Positions 5,963 through 36,208 of a DNA stretch of 36,343 bases are shown piece after piece. Both the position numbers and the translations under genes were made by a program. The notes beneath the pieces were generated by a model, which was not told the origin of the DNA, did no database searches, and saw only the letters and a program-made list of their open reading frames with translations. Each line of letters opens with the position of its first letter. The stretch's first letter is position 1. Source of the DNA: a virus; IMG/VR virus record IMGVR_UViG_3300032116_000647, positions 1 to 36,343 of that record. One strand, written 5' to 3'.

Positions 5963-6091
5963 ATGGGCCTCGGCCCGAGTGTCGTGGAAGTGCTGGTCGA
6001 GCTGACCGCGGTGGTCACCAGGAGCGCGGCGGCGGTGCTCGCGGTGCTGGAGAAGATCGAGGCGAACACGCGGGGCAAGAAGGACAAATGA
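5963..6091 (+). CDS. Small helical protein, 42 aa
   Basis: Starts at ATG 5963, four bases after the small terminase stop, and overlaps the NeuB-like gene by ATGA. The body (VVEVLVELTAVVTRSAAAVL) is hydrophobic enough for an amphipathic or weak membrane helix; the tail (TRGKKDK) is basic. Function unknown. Its overlap suggests it serves translational coupling of the sugar synthase gene. Confidence 0.55.
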   Translation: MGLGPSVVEVLVELTAVVTRSAAAVLAVLEKIEANTRGKKDK

Positions 6092-7146
6092 CGAGACTGT
6101 TCGAGGCAAAGCCGTACATCGTGGCCGAGGTCGGCAGCAATTGGGCGAGCCGCGAGGACGCGGTGGCCAGCATCGGCGCGGCCAAGGCGGCGGGCGCGGA
6201 TTGCGTGAAGTTCCAGGCGTTCGATTGGGAATCGCTCTACGGACCCAACGAAGAAAAGCGGCGGCTAGAAGAGATCGCGGATTTGCCTGGCTGTCCGACG
6301 CGTCCGTTACGCCTGCCCCTAGCCTGGCTCCCAGCCCTCAAGGAAAAGGCGCACGCCTGCGGCATCGACTTCGCGTGCACCGCGTTCAGCCCGGAGCTGG
6401 TCGCCGCGGTAGACCCGTTCGTCCCCTGGCACAAGGTCGCGAGTAGCGATGCGACGTGGCCGCAGCTGCTAGAGGCGGTGGCGGCAACCGGCAAACCCAT
6501 CGTTCTGAGCGTCGGCGCGAAGAGCAGAGGCGACATTGCTGCAACGCTTCAAACACTGGGCGGCCCGGCTAAGGCGCGTACCGTGCTCATGTACTGCGTG
6601 TCGGCTTACCCGGCTCGCACAATCGACCTACGAGTTATGGCAGAACTCAACGTCTACGGCCTCCGCGTCGGATTCTCCGACCATTCAACTGACATCGTTG
6701 GTCACCCTGTGGCGGCAGCTCGACAAGGAGCCGTCGTCATCGAAAAGCACTTCACGGCATTCCCGGAGTTAGACACGCCGGATCGGCCGCACTCGTTGAC
6801 CGCCGATGAGTTCCAGACCATGGTCGAGAACATCCGCGGCACGCGTCGGCATGCGATCGGTCCGACCCCGGAAGAGCGCGACATGCTCCTGAAGTATAAC
6901 CGCCGCCTCCTTGCCACCAGGGACATCGCGGCGGGCGATGTCTTCACCTATGGGCATAACTTCGGCGCGTATCGCTCGCTCGTCGAAGACACGCGCGGTT
7001 TCTCGCCGTTCATGTGGCGGCACGTCGAGGGCGGGATTGCGCTGGCGCCGATCGAACGCGGCGAGGCGATCGGCCCCGGTGACTTCTCGCAGGGCAATGC
7101 GTGCGGCAAGACACCGCGGCATCTGTGGCCGGAGGAATACCGATGA
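6088..7146 (+). CDS. NeuB/PseI/SpsE-family nonulosonic acid synthase
   Basis: A 352-aa protein matching sialic/pseudaminic/legionaminic acid synthases, which condense phosphoenolpyruvate with a 6-carbon amino sugar. Seen: AEVGSNW (Glu14), KFQ (41-43), the metal-ligand motifs GFSDHS (His199) and EKHF (His221), all in a TIM-barrel order, then a C-terminal SAF/antifreeze-like domain from about residue 271 (RRLLATRDIAAGDVFTYG) to about 335. Length and domain order are normal, so it is probably active. Which nonulosonate it makes cannot be told. It is placed between the terminase subunit genes and coupled on both sides by ATGA-type overlaps. The other pathway genes are at 24761-29423 and a Maf-like transferase is at 13610. 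Confidence 0.9.
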   Translation: MTRLFEAKPYIVAEVGSNWASREDAVASIGAAKAAGADCVKFQAFDWESLYGPNEEKRRLEEIADLPGCPTRPLRLPLAWLPALKEKAHACGIDFACTAFSPELVAAVDPFVPWHKVASSDATWPQLLEAVAATGKPIVLSVGAKSRGDIAATLQTLGGPAKARTVLMYCVSAYPARTIDLRVMAELNVYGLRVGFSDHSTDIVGHPVAAARQGAVVIEKHFTAFPELDTPDRPHSLTADEFQTMVENIRGTRRHAIGPTPEERDMLLKYNRRLLATRDIAAGDVFTYGHNFGAYRSLVEDTRGFSPFMWRHVEGGIALAPIERGEAIGPGDFSQGNACGKTPRHLWPEEYR

Positions 7147-13110: not shown

Positions 13111-13602
13111 ATGGCATACGAAGGAATCGCCCCTATCCGTTTCGACAGTGTCTCCAACGTCACGGCGACACGCGGCCCCAAAGACCCGGAAGTCGGCTCC
13201 CGCTGCACCGATGGCGGCATCGACTACGTGTACGTCTACAACGGTGGCACGGACGCTCAAATCTCGGTCGGTCGCGGCGCCGTGCTGCAAAGCAGCGCGT
13301 CTGGCTACACGGTCACGGTTTCGTCGGTCACCTCGGCCGACTTCGTCATCGGTGTCTGCCGCAACGCGACGCTGACGACCGGCACTTACGGCTGGCTCGT
13401 CGCGAAGGGCATCACCAAGGTTCAGATGAAGGCTGGCGCCAGCGCGACCGTCGCGCAACGTGGCCTCATCGAGATCGCGGCCGATGGTTTCTTCGCACCG
13501 GTCTCTCTGACGACGGCGAACCTCGCGCCGGCTTGCGGTGTCGCACTCGAAGCGATCACCTCGGGCACCAGCGGCTCGGCCTTCGTCTCTTGCTACGGGT
13601 GA
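13111..13602 (+). CDS. Capsid decoration / head-stabilising protein (DUF2190-like)
   Basis: A 163-aa beta-rich protein behind AGGAGG. Repeated Gly/Thr/Val strands (GRGAVLQSSASGYTVTVSS and GVCRNATLTTGTYGWLVAKG) resemble DUF2190-type decoration proteins, which trimerise on the outside of the capsid. It directly follows the coat gene. The Ser/Thr-rich surface strands make it a plausible glycosylation target; that is speculation from the neighbouring DUF115 gene, which starts 7 bp after this stop. Confidence 0.65.
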   Translation: MAYEGIAPIRFDSVSNVTATRGPKDPEVGSRCTDGGIDYVYVYNGGTDAQISVGRGAVLQSSASGYTVTVSSVTSADFVIGVCRNATLTTGTYGWLVAKGITKVQMKAGASATVAQRGLIEIAADGFFAPVSLTTANLAPACGVALEAITSGTSGSAFVSCYG

Positions 13603-13609
13603 AGCAACT

Positions 13610-14626
13610 TTGACAGTAGCAACGAGGGAAATCCGGCTCGAATTTCAGCCCTACTTCGACTTGCCCCCGCAGAGGCAAGGCGGCCTCTACGGGCAGGCTT
13701 GCAGCAACGACGCCGTCACGGTTCAATCGTGGCGGCCGACGTGGCTCAAGAACGTCAAGGCGAATAAGGCGAAATTCGGGTCGTTCGCGGAGCACGGTGT
13801 CGGCAAGCTGTTCGGCGCCCACCGGTATAGCCCGGTGATCGTCGTCGGCTCTGGCCCGTCGCTGAAGCACAACGCGCCAGGGCTTCACGCCCGAGCCGGC
13901 ATCCCCGTTGTCTCCTGTCTGCATAACTTCCACTACTTGGAAGACCTCGGCGCGCCAGCTGACTACTACGTCACGCTGGACGCCGGCCCGGTCACGGTCG
14001 AGGAGGTTTCGGAAGGCGGGTCGAAGTCAGCCGACGAGTATTGGGCGCTCACCAAAGAGCGCACTCTCATCGCCTACATCGGCACCGACCCGGAGCTACT
14101 CGCCCGCTGGCAGGGGAAGGTCTATTTCTTCAACTGCCCGCTCCCCGACGAGCGGCTGATGAATGAACTCGAAGAGATCGAGCGCTTCCGCACGTTCCTT
14201 TCGACCGGCGGCAACGTGCTCGGCGCGGCCACGTACTTCTCCAAGGGTATCCTGGGAGCCTCGGCGCTCGTCTTCTTGGGCGCCGACTTCTCCTTCAGCT
14301 ACACCGAGAAGTTCCACGGCTGGGACAGCAAGTACGACGCCGACATCGGCCAGTGCATCCGCCTGACTGACGTATTTGGCAACAAGGTGAAGACCTGGCA
14401 GAGCTACGCCAACTTCAAGGCGTGGTTCGACTGGCTCGCGGAGCACGTGCCGGGCGTCTACATCAACGCATCCGAGGGGGGCTGTTTCGGCAGCTACCCC
14501 GAGGGGAACATCAGGAGCGTGCGTCAGATGACGCTAGCGTCAGCGCTGCGCATGTTCCAGATGAGCGACGAAGTCCGCGAGCAGTGCGAAAACCCGGCGA
14601 CCGAGCAACGCAAAATCCTTTTCTAG
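13610..14626 (+). CDS. DUF115 / Maf-like (motility accessory factor) glycosyltransferase-type protein
   Basis: A 338-aa protein with the features of DUF115/MptE-like proteins: a Rossmann-type IVVGSGPSLK (about 77-86), DYYVTLDAG (118-126), STGGNVLGAA, LGADFSF, and a C-terminal NASEGG. Cellular Maf proteins transfer pseudaminic or legionaminic acid from the CMP-sugar to Ser/Thr of flagellin. Some archaeal DUF115 members are instead pterin pyrophosphokinases, so the fold alone does not prove transfer. The phage also encodes a nonulosonate synthase and CMP-sugar synthetase, which favours transfer. The start is TTG 13610 in a GGTGAAG context; no ATG is available near. It sits inside the capsid gene block, so virion proteins are the likely substrates. 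Confidence 0.75.
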   Translation: MTVATREIRLEFQPYFDLPPQRQGGLYGQACSNDAVTVQSWRPTWLKNVKANKAKFGSFAEHGVGKLFGAHRYSPVIVVGSGPSLKHNAPGLHARAGIPVVSCLHNFHYLEDLGAPADYYVTLDAGPVTVEEVSEGGSKSADEYWALTKERTLIAYIGTDPELLARWQGKVYFFNCPLPDERLMNELEEIERFRTFLSTGGNVLGAATYFSKGILGASALVFLGADFSFSYTEKFHGWDSKYDADIGQCIRLTDVFGNKVKTWQSYANFKAWFDWLAEHVPGVYINASEGGCFGSYPEGNIRSVRQMTLASALRMFQMSDEVREQCENPATEQRKILF

Positions 14627-24427: not shown

Positions 24428-24764
24428 AGCTGCGCTAGCCGCGGCATTCATTGCGTTTTGTGTCGCCTGCTACCTCGGACTGGCGCTCAAAGGAGCCCGC
24501 CGGGCTGGCCGTGAGGCGCTCATTCGGCTCTCGGCCGAGCAGGGGCAGCACGAGGTCAGCAAGCACGCGCTGCGTGACGCGGGAGCCGAACTCGCGACGC
24601 TGCGCGACAAGCTGGCGACGGCGGCGGCCGAGGCTAGCAAGCGCACGCCGAGCATCGAGTGCGCCGAGATGCTACGCGACCTGGCGGCGAACGGCGCGCT
24701 TCTTCACGTCTCGCGCATCGACGCCAACGACGTGTTCATGATGTCACCGAGGACCGCGCGATGA
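24411..24764 (+). CDS. Small membrane-anchored coiled-coil protein without a canonical start codon
   Basis: A clear coding frame ends at TGA 24762-24764, overlapping the SDR start by ATGA. It encodes one hydrophobic N-terminal segment (LIAALAAAFIAFCVACYLGL) followed by basic residues and a charged helix (HALRDAGAELATLRDKLATA). The frame opens after TAG 24384, yet contains no ATG, GTG or TTG before the membrane segment; ATC 24411, ATA 24426 or ATT 24450 are the only near-cognate options, and no good ribosome site is seen. The topology resembles inner-membrane spanin-like proteins. It may start at a rare codon, or be a decayed or misread gene. Confidence 0.45.
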   Translation: MSLSLIAALAAAFIAFCVACYLGLALKGARRAGREALIRLSAEQGQHEVSKHALRDAGAELATLRDKLATAAAEASKRTPSIECAEMLRDLAANGALLHVSRIDANDVFMMSPRTAR

Positions 24765-25660
24765 GCTACGTGGTGATCGGCGGCACCGGCACGCTTGGCA
24801 GCGAGATCATGCGGCAGCTGTTGCAGCGCGATCCCGGCACCAAGATCACCTGCTACAGCCGCGACGAGATGAAGCAGTACCAGGCGCGGGCCGAGTTCCC
24901 GAGCGTGCGCTTTGTGATCGGCGACATCCGCGACCGAGCCGCGGTCAAGAACGTGGTGCGCGGCGCGCATACCGTCTTCCATTTCGCGGCGCTGAAGCAC
25001 ATCGACACCTGCGAGGCGAACCCGGTCGAGGCGATCAAGACGAACCTGCAAGGCTCGCTCAATATCGCCGATGCCGCGGCTGCTGCCCAGGTGCCCTATG
25101 TCGTCTACTCGAACACCGACAAGGCCGTCCTGCCGATCACGACGTATGGCTACACGAAAGCGCTCGCGCAGAACGTGCTGCTGGAGATGAACAAGGGCAC
25201 GCGCACGAAATTCTCGGTGTTCAACTGGGGCAACGTGCTGGCAAGCCGCGGCAGCGTGATCCAGTGTTTCGTGCGCTCGCTGCTCGACAGCGGCCAGGTG
25301 AACATCACCGACTTGCGCATGACGCGCTTCTGGCTGCGCATTGAAGACGCCGCGACGCTGGTGCTCGAACGCTACAAGACCGCGCCGAATGACCGCGCCG
25401 TGATCCCGCCGTGCAAGGGGGCGTATGTCACCGACGTAGCCCAAGCTTGCGCCCGGCTCCTCGGCATCAAGAAGTTCCGTACCAACGTGACGGGCTTGCG
25501 CGGCACCGAGAAGCTGTACGAGGTGCTCGAGAGCACGCACGGCGGCTGCCTCAGGAGCGACACATGCGCGCAGTACACGGCCGACGAGCTCGACTCACTC
25601 TTGCGCGACATAGTCACGAGGCTTGCACAAGAGCACAAGGCAGGGAGGGCATCGGCATGA
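24761..25660 (+). CDS. SDR-family nucleotide-sugar 4,6-dehydratase (PseB/FlaA1/CapD-like)
   Basis: A 299-aa extended SDR enzyme. It has the NAD(P)-binding GGTGTLGSE at residues 8-16, an acidic GDIRD (54-58), FHFAALKHIDTCEANPVEAI (73-92, the PseB/CapD signature), the catalytic SNTDK (117-121) and YGYTK (129-133). In PseB-like enzymes the TDK/YxxxK set converts UDP-GlcNAc to a 4-keto-6-deoxy sugar, the first step of pseudaminic-type sugars. ATG 24761 is chosen because it begins just before the Rossmann motif and overlaps the previous gene. It leads a chain of overlapping sugar genes. The substrate is inferred. Confidence 0.85.
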   Translation: MSYVVIGGTGTLGSEIMRQLLQRDPGTKITCYSRDEMKQYQARAEFPSVRFVIGDIRDRAAVKNVVRGAHTVFHFAALKHIDTCEANPVEAIKTNLQGSLNIADAAAAAQVPYVVYSNTDKAVLPITTYGYTKALAQNVLLEMNKGTRTKFSVFNWGNVLASRGSVIQCFVRSLLDSGQVNITDLRMTRFWLRIEDAATLVLERYKTAPNDRAVIPPCKGAYVTDVAQACARLLGIKKFRTNVTGLRGTEKLYEVLESTHGGCLRSDTCAQYTADELDSLLRDIVTRLAQEHKAGRASA

Positions 25661-26280
25661 TCGTCGGGATTGTCGGGCACCTTGGGAACATGGGCCGCCG
25701 CTACGCGAAAATCTGCGAGTACCTCGGCCATCAAGTCATAGGCCACGACCCGCGGGAAAACCCGCTGGGCGACGTGCGCACGCTATCCTTCACCGCCGAC
25801 GCCATCATCATCGCGAGCCCGACGCCTTACCACGTCGATCACATCCGCGCGTTCAAGGACTACAGCCTGCCGATCCTCTGCGAGAAGCCGGTTACCAAGG
25901 ATCTCGACGCGCTCGAGGAGCTGCTGGCCGACCTCAAGGCAGCGGGCACACGCCTGAAGGTCGTCAACCAGTACGCGGAACTCTCCTTCCCCAAGGACGG
26001 CACCGGCCTGACCTCCTACGACTACTTCAAGAGCGGCGGCGACGGCCTAGCCTGGGATTGCATCAGCCTCGTGACCTTGGCCAACGGCCCGGTCGAGCTG
26101 CGGAACGACTCGCCCGTCTGGAAGGCGCAGATCAACGGGCACCCTCTCGTCGCGAGCGACATGGACGGCGCCTACATCCGCATGGTTGACCGCTGGCTGC
26201 GTGACCCATCGACGACCGACTACGACGCCATCTATCGAGCCCACAAGAAGGTAGCCGACCTTTGCCAACCAAAGTCCTAA
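25657..26280 (+). CDS. Gfo/Idh/MocA-type NAD(P)-dependent sugar oxidoreductase, short form
   Basis: A 207-aa protein starting at ATG 25657, overlapping the SDR stop. N-terminal Rossmann motif GIVGHLGNMGRRY, DAIIIASPTPYHVDH, and the family hallmark LCEKPVTKD. Typical family members have about 320-350 aa; here the C-terminal alpha/beta substrate domain is reduced, so it may be a minimal or specialised enzyme. In surface-sugar operons these proteins oxidise or reduce a sugar intermediate. It overlaps the next gene by 19 bp. Confidence 0.75.
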   Translation: MIVGIVGHLGNMGRRYAKICEYLGHQVIGHDPRENPLGDVRTLSFTADAIIIASPTPYHVDHIRAFKDYSLPILCEKPVTKDLDALEELLADLKAAGTRLKVVNQYAELSFPKDGTGLTSYDYFKSGGDGLAWDCISLVTLANGPVELRNDSPVWKAQINGHPLVASDMDGAYIRMVDRWLRDPSTTDYDAIYRAHKKVADLCQPKS

Positions 26281-26978
26281 TAGCGATACAGGCGCGCAGC
26301 GGGTCTACCCGGCTGCCGCGCAAAGCCTTCGAGCTGATCGGCGAGCGGCGCATGCTAGACCATGTGGTCGACGCTTGCCGCGAGGCCGCGCGCTACCTGA
26401 TGTCGCGGCCGACGCCGAATGCTCCCGAGGTCAGCGTGGCGCTGCTCGTGCCGACCGCTGATCCCATCGCCAAGGAGTTCGCGCGTGGCGTGGGCGTCGT
26501 CGAAGGCCCGGAGCAAGACGTGCTCAGCCGGTACTACGCGGCGCTCGAGCGCTACTCGCCCGACTTCGTCGTGCGCATCACCGGCGATTGCCCGCTAATC
26601 CCCGACTTCCTGATCGCCAAGCACATCACGACAGCGATCAAGGGGCGGTACGACTACGTGTCAAACGTGGACGAAGAGACGCGCACGGCGATCGACGGGC
26701 ACGACTGCGAGGTCATGAGCAGCCGCATGCTTGGCTGGCTGCATGGCGCCGCGGAGACAGCCCCCGACCGCGAGCACGTGACCCTCATGGCTCGTCGCGA
26801 GCCACCCGACTGGGCGCGCATGGGCTGCGTGCTGAACTACCACGACCAAAGCCACGTCAAGCTGAGCGTCGACACGGCAGACGACTTAGCGCGCGTGCGC
26901 GACGAGTACAGTCGGCGCGATCTCAAGCTATTCAAGGCCGAGCGCAAGTTCGGCAGGCAAGCGGTGCACCGCCTATGA
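26262..26978 (+). CDS. SpsF/PseF/NeuA-like CMP-sugar synthetase (cytidylyltransferase)
   Basis: A 238-aa nucleotidyltransferase. The N-terminal AIQARSGSTRLPRKAF is the SpsF/NeuA nucleotide-binding motif, followed by VVEGPEQDVLSRYYAA and VVRITGDCPLIPD with the metal-binding Asp. Such enzymes load a nonulosonic acid with CMP for transfer. The start is TTG 26262 (AGAAGG about 10 bp upstream), overlapping the previous gene by 19 bp. Length and motifs are complete. With the NeuB-like gene it provides the two defining steps of CMP-nonulosonate synthesis; the exact sugar is unknown. Confidence 0.85.
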   Translation: MPTKVLIAIQARSGSTRLPRKAFELIGERRMLDHVVDACREAARYLMSRPTPNAPEVSVALLVPTADPIAKEFARGVGVVEGPEQDVLSRYYAALERYSPDFVVRITGDCPLIPDFLIAKHITTAIKGRYDYVSNVDEETRTAIDGHDCEVMSSRMLGWLHGAAETAPDREHVTLMARREPPDWARMGCVLNYHDQSHVKLSVDTADDLARVRDEYSRRDLKLFKAERKFGRQAVHRL

Positions 26979-28201
26979 GCGACCATTTCGCGCTGCACAG
27001 GCGCGCCCAAGACTGCATCGCACAGGCTGCGCTGACGAACAGCAAGCGTCCGAGCTGCCACGTGCAAGGCGTCTACCCGACGCATGTCGCCCGCGGCCAC
27101 GGCGGCCACCTGTGGGACCACGCCGGCCGCAAGTATCTCGACTTCATCTGCGGGCTGGGCACCAACATCCTCGGCTACGGCGACGCGCGCGTAAACGCCG
27201 CGATCGCCGCGCAGCTCCCGCACGGCGCATCCCTGTCCTTCTCTACCCACCACGAGCTGGAGACGGCGGAGAAGGTCAAGGAGCTAGTGCCGTTCGTCGA
27301 TGCGGTGAAGTTCCTGAAGTCCGGCAGCGAGGCGTGCTCGGCCGCCATCCGCATCGCGCGCGCAGCGACCGGACGACACTACGTGCTGAGCGACGCCTAT
27401 CACGGCTGGCACGACGAGTTCGTCAGCTTGACGCCGCCGGCCTACGGCGTGCCGAACGACGACGACGGCTTTACTCGAGCGATCGAGCCGTTTCACAAGC
27501 TCGACCAGATCGACAGCACGGTCGCGGCCGTGATCGTCGAGCCGGTCGTGACCGACGCGAGCGACGCGCGGCGTGCTTATCTCCAAGAATTGCGGAAAGT
27601 GTGCACAAAGCACGGCACTCTGCTCATTTTCGACGAGGTCATCACCGGGTTCCGATGGCCGCGTTTCACCGTGGCGACCAACTGGTCGATCACGCCGGAC
27701 CTCATCTGCCTCGGCAAGGCGATTGCCAATGGCATGCCGCTGGCTGTCGTCGGCGGCAAGTACGCGGTTATGAATTGTCCCGACGAATACTTCGTTAGTT
27801 CGACCTACGCTGGCGAGACGCTATCCCTGGTCGCCGCCAAGACGACCATGACGCTACTCCAGACCAAGTACGACCTGGCGAACCTGTGGGAGCACGGCGC
27901 GCAGTTCCTCGACGGCTTCAACGCCATCTGGCCGGAAGCCGTGCGCATCGAGGGGTACCCGTCGCGCGGCGCGTTCAAGGGCGACCTGCGCGCTCGAGCC
28001 ATGTTCTTCCAGGAGGCTTGCCTAGCAGGTCTGCTTTTTGGTCCCAGTTTTTTCCTGTCCTTCGCGCACCTCGGCGAGATGCACGGCGTGCTCGACACGT
28101 GCAGAGACATCCTGGGTCGTGTAAAACGCGGCGAAGTAAGGATGAAAGGGGAGCTTCCGAGCAGCCCCTTTGCGGAGCGAGTGAGGGCAAAAAGCGCATG
28201 A
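26975..28201 (+). CDS. Class III PLP-dependent aminotransferase (glutamate-1-semialdehyde aminomutase-like)
   Basis: A 408-aa fold-type I enzyme. PLP-binding SGSEA (116-120), YHGWHDE (142-148), LLIFDEVITGFR (217-228, Asp220), the Schiff-base Lys248 in LGKAIANG, and STYAGETLS (276-284). The closest family is the GSA-aminomutase-like group of class III, members of which occur in surface-sugar clusters beside SpsF and NeuB proteins. It would place the amino group on the keto sugar, in the role of the DegT-type PseC in the classic pathway. Heme synthesis is unlikely in this context. Overlaps neighbours by 4 bp on both sides. Confidence 0.85.
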   Translation: MSDHFALHRRAQDCIAQAALTNSKRPSCHVQGVYPTHVARGHGGHLWDHAGRKYLDFICGLGTNILGYGDARVNAAIAAQLPHGASLSFSTHHELETAEKVKELVPFVDAVKFLKSGSEACSAAIRIARAATGRHYVLSDAYHGWHDEFVSLTPPAYGVPNDDDGFTRAIEPFHKLDQIDSTVAAVIVEPVVTDASDARRAYLQELRKVCTKHGTLLIFDEVITGFRWPRFTVATNWSITPDLICLGKAIANGMPLAVVGGKYAVMNCPDEYFVSSTYAGETLSLVAAKTTMTLLQTKYDLANLWEHGAQFLDGFNAIWPEAVRIEGYPSRGAFKGDLRARAMFFQEACLAGLLFGPSFFLSFAHLGEMHGVLDTCRDILGRVKRGEVRMKGELPSSPFAERVRAKSA

Positions 28202-28674
28202 AACGTTGTTATTTGTGTAAGAAAGACAAGCCGCGAAGCGACTTTCACAAGTGCGCTGGACGCACTGATGGCCTGCAAACGAAGTGCAAACCTTGCCAGA
28301 TCGAGTACCAGCGTCAGCGCCGGAAGACCGCAGAAGGCAAAGCGTACGATAGCAAGCGCCGGGTCATGTACAGCCAGACGGAGCGTGGTCGCGAAGTCAT
28401 GAAAGAGGCAGCGAGACGTTTTCGCTCGCGCCCGGAAGGGGCCGCGAAGAGCAGGACGTGGTGCCAGCGATACGCTAGAGAAAACAGAGAGAAGATCCGC
28501 GCCCACAAGCGGGTGAGCAAAGCGGTTGCCGCAGGCAAGATCCAGCGCTTGCCATGCGAGGTCTGCGGCACAACTCCGACTGATGCCCATCACCACGACT
28601 ATTCCAAGCCGCTTGACGTGCGTTGGCTTTGCAGATTTCACCACGGCGAAGAGCATAGGAAGGCGCGCGCATGA
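28198..28674 (+). CDS. HNH-type zinc-finger endonuclease
   Basis: A 158-aa basic protein. N-terminal zinc motif CYLCKKDKPRSDFHKC, then CKPC; C-terminal HNH-like module CEVCG, DAHHHDYSKPLDVRWLC and RFHHGEEH, a common phage HNH variant (His-Tyr/Asn-His with CxxC ligands). Between them is an Arg/Lys-rich helical linker. Likely a free-standing homing-type or DNA-nicking endonuclease. It overlaps the aminotransferase and GNAT genes by 4 bp each, which splits the sugar operon without breaking translation coupling. Confidence 0.8.
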   Translation: MKRCYLCKKDKPRSDFHKCAGRTDGLQTKCKPCQIEYQRQRRKTAEGKAYDSKRRVMYSQTERGREVMKEAARRFRSRPEGAAKSRTWCQRYARENREKIRAHKRVSKAVAAGKIQRLPCEVCGTTPTDAHHHDYSKPLDVRWLCRFHHGEEHRKARA

Positions 28675-29423
28675 AGATCCCGGTGAGCCTTGAACTTCGC
28701 GCCTTCGACTCGACCGACGCCGTCCGCGTCCGCGAGTGGCGGAACCACTACAGCATCTGGCGGTACTGCCGCCAAAACGATTTGATCTCCGATGTTGCGC
28801 AAACCGCTTGGTATGAGCGACAGTCTAAAGATCCCAGCATCAAAATGTACGGGCTATGGCTGAAGGTGGCGGCGGGGGCCGAGCTAGTCGGCGTGGCCGG
28901 GCTCACGTCCATTGATTGGTTCAATCGTCGGGCCGAGTTCTCGTTGTACCTAAATCCCGAAAAGCACCGACAGGGGCTAGGGAGCAGCGGGCTCAGGATG
29001 CTCCTTGCGCACGCGTTCGACAACCTCGCGCTTGAACAGGTATGGGGCGAGACGCTCGAGGGAAACCCCGCCATGGCGATCTTTCAAGCCATCGGCTTCA
29101 AGCAGGACGGCACCCGGCGCGCCTTCTATTGGAAAGACGGCCGCTTCTGGGACGCCCACCTCATCAGCATCACCCGCGAGGAATGGCATGGACATCGTAC
29201 AAGGGCTGCTACTCCTGATCACGCTGGCGACGCTGGTAACGACGCTGGCGCTTTGGAAGCAGCGGGTGACCCCGCTCGTCGACAAGGTGGCAAGCGAGGC
29301 CGTAGACCACGAGGAGTCGCCGCACTCGTCGCTGGAGCCGACCACGCGGCCGATGCGGGTAGCCGTCCTGGACGACGAGACGGCAGCGAGGCGCGAGAGG
29401 CAGGCCAGGGAGAAGGCGCCTAA
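28671..29423 (+). CDS. GNAT-family N-acetyltransferase (PseH-like), with long out-of-frame 3' overlap
   Basis: Residues 1-173 are a complete GNAT: an N-terminal LRAFDSTDAVRVREWRNHYS, a beta core with EFSLYL, acetyl-CoA-binding HRQGLGSSGLRML, and NPAMAIFQAIGF. This is the pattern of PseH/RimJ-type acetyltransferases acting on amino sugars such as the UDP-4-amino intermediate of pseudaminic synthesis. The frame continues to residue 250, but the last about 77 aa are Ala/Gly/Arg-rich and overlap, in another frame, the membrane-protein gene at 29188. That tail looks like shadow sequence, so the enzyme may simply lack a nearby stop. Overlaps the HNH gene by 4 bp. Confidence 0.75.
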   Translation: MKIPVSLELRAFDSTDAVRVREWRNHYSIWRYCRQNDLISDVAQTAWYERQSKDPSIKMYGLWLKVAAGAELVGVAGLTSIDWFNRRAEFSLYLNPEKHRQGLGSSGLRMLLAHAFDNLALEQVWGETLEGNPAMAIFQAIGFKQDGTRRAFYWKDGRFWDAHLISITREEWHGHRTRAATPDHAGDAGNDAGALEAAGDPARRQGGKRGRRPRGVAALVAGADHAADAGSRPGRRDGSEAREAGQGEGA

Positions 29424-32480: not shown

Positions 32481-32680
32481 GCCTCACCTCCGGCTCTCTT
32501 CTCCCACTCCACCGCACGCAATTCGCTGGAGATGCCCATGACGTAAGCGCCGAAGACCAGAAGTAGCAGCGGCGTTTCTGGGGAGTGCTTCCATGCTGCC
32601 GCAGCGAATTCGGTGCCGAAGTATGCGAGGCAGAACAGGTACATGTAAATCATTCCGTATCGCGTGATATGTCGCCTCAT
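32477..32680 (-). CDS. Small membrane protein with two hydrophobic segments, 67 aa
   Basis: Two hydrophobic segments (MIYMYLFCLAYFGTEFAAAA and TPLLLLVFGAYVMGISS) with a charged end (RAVEWEKRAGGEA). It overlaps neighbours by 4 bp. Topology is like small phage membrane proteins (holin or superinfection exclusion), but it is in the early array. Unrecognised. Confidence 0.6.
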   Translation of the reverse strand: MRRHITRYGMIYMYLFCLAYFGTEFAAAAWKHSPETPLLLLVFGAYVMGISSELRAVEWEKRAGGEA

Positions 32681-32925
32681 GGCCCCTTGCCTCCCGCCCG
32701 CCGCGCGGCCTGGGCGTCGGGCTTAGCGCGCCGATTCCACGCGGCACGCGCATCAAACTTGCTCGCCTTGTAAGGGCCCTCGGTGCCGCACTCTTCGCAG
32801 TGAACCCAGTAATGGTTGGTTCCCAAGAGGCACAACCACTGGCTGGTCCCGCAGAAAGGACACGGCTTCAGCATTGTTGGCGCCTTCTTTGCCGGTTTCC
32901 CGGCCTTGGCTTTGCTGCTAGCCAT
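32677..32925 (-). CDS. Lar-family (restriction alleviation-like) zinc protein, 82 aa
   Basis: A Lys/Ala-rich start then LKPCPFCGTSQWLCLLG, VHCEECGTEGPYKA and DARAAWNRRA, the Lar pattern (CPFCG...CxxCG...A..WN.R). The Rac prophage Lar protein reduces type I restriction by promoting modification; most phage homologues are untested. ATG 32925 is chosen over an upstream frame of Arg/Cys shadow composition. It overlaps its neighbours. Confidence 0.7.
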   Translation of the reverse strand: MASSKAKAGKPAKKAPTMLKPCPFCGTSQWLCLLGTNHYWVHCEECGTEGPYKASKFDARAAWNRRAKPDAQAARRAGGKGP

Positions 32926-33148
32926 CGACGCCTCGTGCCAGCATCCCGTTAATCCGCGCGCACCGCCGCGTGATCTCCTCGCCCTGGAACACGAGGCTTT
33001 CGTCGTCCAGCGGGTCGATCGACAGGAACAGCCGCGCCTCATCGGCCAGCTTCAGCGCCTCGGCTTGCAGGCGCGAGATGAACGCCAGGCGCGACGGGGT
33101 TAACGGCGGGCGCAGGCGCCGCGGGGCAGACAGCTCGGTGGTACTCAT
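32918..33148 (-). CDS. Hypothetical protein, 76 aa
   Basis: Start ATG 33148 with GAAGGA about 11 bp upstream; a GTG at 33190 is possible but falls in the repeat tract. Basic N-terminus (APRRLRPPLTPSRLAF) and helical body (ISRLQAEALKLADEARLFLS). First gene after the 390-bp pentamer-repeat tract. Unrecognised. Confidence 0.55.
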   Translation of the reverse strand: MSTTELSAPRRLRPPLTPSRLAFISRLQAEALKLADEARLFLSIDPLDDESLVFQGEEITRRCARINGMLARGVDG

Positions 33149-33180
33149 TGTTGCTGGGTTTCCTTCACTGTTTGTTTGTG

Positions 33181-33537
33181 ACCTCGCCACGCCCTGCGTT
33201 ACCTAGCCCTGCCCTTCCGGGCCGTCCGTACCAGGCCGCTCAGCGCCTAACCTCGCGACACATCACCGTGCGATACCCAAGCACTCCGCGCCAGGCCCAA
33301 CCCGACCCAGCCCAACCATGCCGCTCCAGTGCATCCAAGCCCTGCCCAACCCCGCGCTACCCAACCTGTGGCAACCAAGCCAAACCATCCACGCCTCGCG
33401 TTGCCTTGCGCTGCCGTAGGCCTCCGCGCCATCCGTTCCTAACCACGCTGCGCCTTGCCGTACCTCGCGGCACGAATTCGCGCCTTGCCTTGCCTTCCAA
33501 ACCTTGCCCAAGCTTGCCCAACCGAGCGTTACCCGAC
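33181..33537. repeat. Degenerate pentanucleotide-periodic tract, non-coding
   Basis: The gap 33149-33537 between two leftward genes has no credible gene. On the plus strand CC dinucleotides recur about every 5 nt through almost the whole stretch (runs such as TTGCC TTGCC TTCCA, and GCCCA ACCCG ACCCA), with the phase drifting; on the minus strand this is a GG-every-5 pattern such as GGCAA GGCAA. Several open frames cross it on both strands, with Arg/Gly/Trp/Leu-rich low-complexity products; they follow from the repeat and are not genes. There is no exact long unit, so it is an old or constrained repeat rather than a recent expansion. Confidence 0.65.
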
Positions 33538-34146
33538 TCAGCCACGCGCATGCCGCTTCGTATCGAGGGCGACAGGCTCCTCGATTTTGAGCACTTCCCA
33601 TTTCGCCACGATGAATTTGCCGAACGGCCCACCCTTCTCCACGCGGTAGTCGCCAATTCCCGCGCGCTTGCCGGCGTCGGCCAGGATGCCGTGGACCTGA
33701 TCCAACGGCAGGATGTCCTCGTCAATTTCCACGTCGAATTCGAGCGCCCACGACTCCAGCCGCGCACGGTGCCGCATGATGCGGGCGCGCTGTACAACGG
33801 CTGGGCGCGAATCAATCTCGATGTCGGCGAGCGTGTAGCCCTCGGCGAAATAGAGCTTTTCCGAGGTCAGCGTGATCGCGCCCGAGCTCACCGACTTCAC
33901 ACTCTTGCGCGAGCCCGCGATCTTGTAGTCGCTGGCGATCGACCGGATACACCCGCTAACCCACGACCACGGTACCCACAGCTTGCCGTCCGGGTCGGCG
34001 TATGCCGTCTTCTCGGCCTGCTCGCGCGGCGTGCCGTAGTCCTTCTTGCCGTGCTTCTTCACGGTCACAGGGATTTCGTCCTGCTCCTTGAATCGGTTGA
34101 TCAGAATGGGCGACACGCCGTCAAGGCGCACCGATACGGTCTTCAT
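33538..34146 (-). CDS. Conserved phage-type protein, possible RAMP/Cas7-like fold, 202 aa
   Basis: Start ATG 34146 behind GGAGGG. N-terminus MKTVSVRLDGVSPILINRF, middle WVPWSWVSGCIRSIASDYK, and near the end GIGDYRVEKGGPFGKFIV. A beta-strand start, a catch-all PLI-type motif and a late Gly-rich GGPFGKF loop recall ferredoxin-like RAMP/Cas7-group proteins, which bind single-stranded nucleic acid. No CRISPR or cas genes are present, so if the fold is right its role is different, perhaps ssDNA handling. The fold link is a weak inference; the gene itself is clear. Confidence 0.7.
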   Translation of the reverse strand: MKTVSVRLDGVSPILINRFKEQDEIPVTVKKHGKKDYGTPREQAEKTAYADPDGKLWVPWSWVSGCIRSIASDYKIAGSRKSVKSVSSGAITLTSEKLYFAEGYTLADIEIDSRPAVVQRARIMRHRARLESWALEFDVEIDEDILPLDQVHGILADAGKRAGIGDYRVEKGGPFGKFIVAKWEVLKIEEPVALDTKRHARG

Positions 34147-36103: not shown

Positions 36104-36137
36104 GGGGTACCTCAGGTTGTGTGCGAGGCTTTGGGGG

Positions 36138-36208
36138 CACGTTGGGGTGGAATCGAACCACCATCTGCGGATTTGGAAACCGCTGCTTGACCTTCCAGCT
36201 ACCAACGC
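36138..36208 (-). tRNA. Probable tRNA-Trp (anticodon CCA)
   Basis: On the minus strand from 36208: acceptor GCGTTGG, TA, D arm GCTG...AAGC with GG in the loop, anticodon stem GCGGT/TCCGC (one T-T mismatch at the loop end), loop TTCCAAA giving anticodon CCA, variable AGAT, T arm GGTGG-TTCGATT-CCACC, acceptor CCAACGT, discriminator G at 36138. G73 and CCA fit tRNA-Trp. First acceptor pair is G-T; the 3' CCA is not encoded (CCC follows). Probably a phage-borne tRNA. Confidence 0.75.

Follow-up and report, generated by a model that had tools for sequence, protein, structure and literature searches.

A pentamer-periodic tract beside a Vipr homologue in an uncultivated phage: a probable array of vrRNA guides

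Results

A periodic tract within a leftward gene series

We analysed a stretch of 36,343 nt (the window), positions 1 to 36,343 of IMG/VR virus record IMGVR_UViG_3300032116_000647, which carries a P22-like portal, a terminase and an integrase; relatives of the portal were too remote, and scattered over too many hosts, to point to a host. Within a leftward series of genes lies a 365-bp tract (33179-33543), whose start overlaps the upstream gene's stop codon and whose end is ~30 bp short of the ATG of the next gene, at 33148. On the minus strand, the one predicted to be transcribed, the tract was parsed into seven segments totalling 68 GGYNN units:

33541..34146, minus strand: predicted vipr gene, ~202-aa protein of RAMP/Cas7 fold with the C-terminal glycine-rich loop DYRVEKGGPFGKF
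33179..33543, minus strand: candidate vrRNA array, 68 GGYNN units, 7 segments
33495..33543, minus strand: candidate guide segment V1, ~9 units + GGAA (parse); uncertain at the 5' end, where it overlaps the stop codon of vipr
33431..33494, minus strand: candidate guide segment V2, 12 units + GGAT (parse)
33387..33430, minus strand: candidate guide segment V3, 8 units + GGAT (parse)
33333..33386, minus strand: candidate guide segment V4, 10 units + GGAT (parse)
33283..33332, minus strand: candidate guide segment V5, 9 units + GGAGT (parse); 5-nt end, the single exception to the 4-nt reset
33224..33282, minus strand: candidate guide segment V6, 11 units + GGAC (parse)
33179..33223, minus strand: candidate guide segment V7, 9 units without a GGA end (parse); continues into the leader of the gene that follows

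Searching the window for promoters and terminators gave match counts equal to chance, with no credible case among them. An Rfam scan returned nothing except a tRNA; a tRNA-Trp gene (36136-36208) stands at the end of the record and may be an attachment site or a phage tRNA. Two genes downstream of the array, a Lar-like restriction-alleviation zinc-ribbon protein is encoded at 32677-32928 (PF14354, E 6.9e-12). Elsewhere, Pfam matches to NeuB, an MptE-like protein, a Polysacc_synt_2 dehydratase, a GFO/IDH oxidoreductase, a class III aminotransferase and a GNAT acetyltransferase (genes at 6088-7146, 13538-14626, 24659-25660, 25411-26280, 26588-28201 and 28671-29423) look like a nonulosonic-acid (sialic/pseudaminic/legionaminic-type) sugar set, which would be unusual for a 36-kb phage contig.

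Rhythm and composition of the tract

The original prediction, made from the letters of the DNA, had described CC (GG on the minus strand) recurring about every 5 nt over some 70 units with drifting phase and no exact repeat. The autocorrelation that it proposed bore this out, with a peak at lag 5 and its multiples at the tract only. Among 71 plus-strand CC dinucleotides, 40 pairs were separated by 5 nt; lags of 10, 15, 20 and 25 gave 36, 32, 32 and 30 pairs, and lags of 7, 8, 12 and 13 gave 1-3. The lag-5 score was 32.75, more than four times that of the best of 2000 dinucleotide-preserving shuffles (mean 0.1, maximum 7.25), and never exceeded 3.1 elsewhere in the window. A chain search of both strands of the whole window found GGYNN runs confined to the tract.

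In the 68 parsed units, the three GGY positions carried 1.0, 1.5 and 0.6 bits of information, values that are biased upwards by the parsing; the NN positions, for which the values are unbiased, carried 0.08 and 0.02 bits and were thus close to random. No near-exact repeats were detected within the tract. Stops were present in five of its six reading frames, which makes a coding role look unlikely. Some 15 of the 68 units, about one in five, lack an initial GG. The commonest departures from GGY were CGC and CGT (9/68 units), as was also the case in two related records, L002 and L004 (see below), so that a C may be tolerated in the first position.

Grid resets at four-nucleotide GGAN units

The segments V1-V7 comprise 9, 12, 8, 10, 9, 11 and 9 units according to the parse, and the usual terminal unit is a 4-nt GGAN at which the pentamer grid is reset. 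The phase of the tract does therefore shift, as originally described, yet it is rule-bound rather than drifting. The Fourier peak of the tract was at 4.9, not 5.0, as expected if a 4-nt step occurs about once in 50 nt. With resets placed at the segment ends, 55 of the 72 GG fell on the grid; the best fixed grid captured 21, and random placement of five resets, repeated 20,000 times, captured no more than 49.

Pooling the window with the three related records L002-L004, a grid step of -1 was found at 29 of 45 GGA units versus 5 of 262 GGY units (Fisher P 3e-24); the window alone gave 5 of 10 versus 0 of 41 (P 1e-4). End-to-end spacings within the arrays (44, 49, 54, 59, 64, 69, 79 nt etc.) equalled 4 modulo 5 with few exceptions; these sites were picked by eye, and the Fisher test is therefore the firmer figure. 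After GGA the pentamer grid goes on, shifted by -1 and without a 3' tail. From these patterns we infer that the GGAN unit, in which a purine replaces the pyrimidine of the repeats, marks the 3' end of a guide and that the next guide starts in a new register.

The adjoining protein is a homologue of SUSP1 Vipr

The original prediction had placed a putative nucleic-acid-binding protein beside the tract (33538-34146). Sequence comparison and structure modelling identify this neighbour (33541-34146) as a Vipr homologue with a predicted RAMP (Cas7/Csm3) fold. Its sequence matched PDB entry 36pp, 'SUSP1 Vipr protein', with E 1.7e-5 by phmmer and E 3.2e-8 by a three-sequence profile, as well as phrog_4652 (function not assigned; E 6.5e-18); it matched no family in Pfam, NCBIfam or PADLOC. 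A tblastn search retrieved 104 phage records, mostly Felixounavirus-like, together with Pseudomonas phage LESphi2; the Felixounavirus and LESphi2 homologues were 23-24% identical across 89% of the length. Profile comparison with the LESphi2 protein (E 2.5e-14) included the glycine-rich loop DYRPEKGGAFGRF, and the C-terminal loop DYR-EKGG-FG(K/R)F is common to both proteins.

An AlphaFold model of the protein was of medium confidence (pLDDT 71, pTM 0.69). The best 50 PDB fold matches obtained with Foldseek and VIA were all CRISPR effector structures, led by Csm3/Cas7-type subunits (best Z 9.9). The fold library ends in April 2026, so that the absence of 36pp among the matches listed is uninformative.

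Relatives carry vipr together with periodic tracts

IMG/VR yielded three relatives (L002-L004), with identities of 72, 66 and 58%. Each of them has tracts with GG at a period of 5, restricted to the vipr strand and beginning at, or shortly after, the stop codon of vipr. L002 has three tracts lying between other genes, and in L004 a lone additional guide, 14 units long, lies 1.2 kb downstream of vipr. In L003, vipr and its array lie between two terminator-like hairpins and are read in the expected direction, such hairpin matches being near the chance number. More distantly, vipr is accompanied by tracts of 10-15 units in LESphi2 (L022; three tracts) and in the Felixounavirus VpaE1 (L023; five tracts). 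The expectation that relatives would show the same periodicity without sequence identity thus proved correct in L002-L004, L022 and L023: the tract sequences differ, with no identity seen beyond the motif. The ORF after the first array of L002 (4960-5385) extends into the second tract, where the guides may at the same time be coding.

Except for Vipr and, in L004, an integrase, no convincing gene was shared with the neighbourhoods of the relatives. Phage records contained no close DNA relative of the window, IMG/VR no relative of the primase, and genome_contigs no Vipr relative by the method used.

Search for targets

Exact 8-unit NNx probes of V2, V4, V5, V6 and V7 (V1 and V3 were left out) matched 12, 21, 39, 5 and 7 stretches of IMG/VR, respectively. 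None of these matches extended past the probe; as the flanking units do not match, they were counted as chance. In the four Vipr-bearing phage records, the probes tried yielded no convincing natural target. When the window and L002-L004 were compared for guides aimed at their own or at each other's sequences, allowing mismatches and skips of 0-3, a 1-nt skip performed no better than the other rules. Perfect skip-3 matches were arrays matching themselves. A guide of L004 partially matched window position 25891 (20/28, codon-aligned), a score equalled by 5 of 300 shuffles, which fails given the number of guides. V6 matched the L002 record at 14/16, which dropped to 16/22 on extension. Host prophages are the likeliest targets.

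Discussion

VIPR, described in a preprint (April/June 2026), combines a RAMP protein named Vipr with vrRNAs made up of 9-16 YNNGG units; their NN pairs recognise DNA while skipping one base, and the targets are mostly competing phages (PMC13142463). Phages are thought to use it to switch off the genes of rival phages (PMC13142463). Since the GGY/NN grid and the Vipr homologue match this system, we favour reading the tract as an array of some seven vrRNA guides belonging to a VIPR system that the phage encodes, with the adjoining upstream gene encoding its Vipr protein (probability about 0.92). What we observed, at the locus and in its relatives, is the GGY/NN grid with variable NN, the RAMP fold, the homology to SUSP1 Vipr, the linkage of such tracts to Vipr, and the GGAN resets.

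A remnant array, in which the VIPR system is real and its guides have decayed and work no longer, would account for the 15 units that are not GG-initial, for V5 lacking a 4-nt reset and V7 an end, and for the targets not found in the IMG/VR scans. The vipr gene, however, is intact and strongly conserved, and the longer arrays of the relatives depart from the motif likewise, for example by CGC units, which makes decay unlikely. The original prediction had also offered a G-rich RNA structure, and GG every 5 nt does suit a loose two-quartet G-quadruplex motif; such a structure, or a folded RNA, might regulate the operon. The folding energy of the tract as RNA, in a model that leaves quadruplexes aside, equalled that of dinucleotide shuffles (z 0.12), and a structural role leaves unexplained the pyrimidine at position 3, the GGA-linked resets and the association with a RAMP protein in phages that are unrelated. 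We consider it very improbable.

Least credible is a DNA site serving as recombination or replication substrate of the neighbouring protein. The tract does adjoin a nucleic-acid-binding protein, but the fold of that protein is that of RNA-guided CRISPR subunits, and the related SUSP1 Vipr binds RNAs of just this GGY/NN pentamer design (PMC13142463); the recombination substrate suggested originally thus found no support. The third early suggestion, a site at which a protein stepping every 5 nt would load, was nearly right: a RAMP-fold Vipr adjoins the tract and its published relative binds pentamer RNA, although the tract itself is better taken as a guide-RNA array.

Within VIPR, the closest comparison is with type II, known from Escherichia phage SUSP1 and a Pseudomonas fulva prophage (PMC13142463) and here probably represented by VpaE1 and LESphi2. 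The window shares with it a RAMP-fold Vipr with a glycine-rich loop, adjacent GGY/NN tracts with hypervariable NN and carriage by a phage. It differs in the gene that follows vipr directly in L022 and L023, to which the window has no match. The accessory gene vap is typical of VIPR, though not stated to be universal (PMC13142463); none was recognised in the window by comparison with the genes neighbouring vipr in the relatives. The guides differ as well. Those of L022 and L023 mostly end in GGG followed by a tail several tens of nt long (conserved among themselves in L023), whereas those of the window end in GGAN, are chained without spacers and lack an invariable structured 3' tail after the repeats; V3, with 8 units in the parse, would be below the published range. 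Some VIPR types are described in the text of the preprint as having staggered arrays of overlapping vrRNAs (PMC13142463); these resemble the window in packing several guides closely into one array, and as far as that description goes they may be the same thing. With the Cas7/Csm3 backbone of class 1 CRISPR-Cas, the protein shares its fold (Z up to 9.9) and, presumably, the placing of one subunit per short RNA step. The step is 5 nt here as against 6, the guide of published VIPR is non-contiguous, and neither CRISPR repeats in the window nor cas families among the window proteins scanned were recognised.

By analogy with the published system, the array would be transcribed leftward together with vipr, and Vipr subunits would line up along the RNA, each on one pentamer. 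Within a segment, the NN pairs would then read double-stranded DNA as NNx NNx with a 1-nt skip, and the bound complex would repress transcription of a rival mobile element; the inter-phage role of the window array would likewise follow from what is published on VIPR. Our own addition is that GGAN would close each guide and set a new register for the next, several guides being packed without spacers or tails. As GGAN ends the guides here and GGG mostly opens the tails in L022 and L023, a purine at the third place may be a general mark for the end of a guide. A tail-less VIPR subtype, with guides joined end to end and 4-nt GGAN as their sole punctuation, and with the register shift itself setting the boundary of the RNP, is a tentative extension to which we give somewhat less than even odds.

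Taken together, the locus appears to be a further member of the recently described VIPR, its array perhaps a tail-less variant. VIPR is only months old, is a proposed ancestor of CRISPR and has a non-contiguous guide code. The four uncultivated phages would add a further Vipr clade, with an intact Vipr and compact arrays, and a readable punctuation rule would make guide boundaries predictable from sequence. A system this minimal, with one protein and neither vap nor tail seen, may be well suited to asking how the RNP senses the end of its guide.
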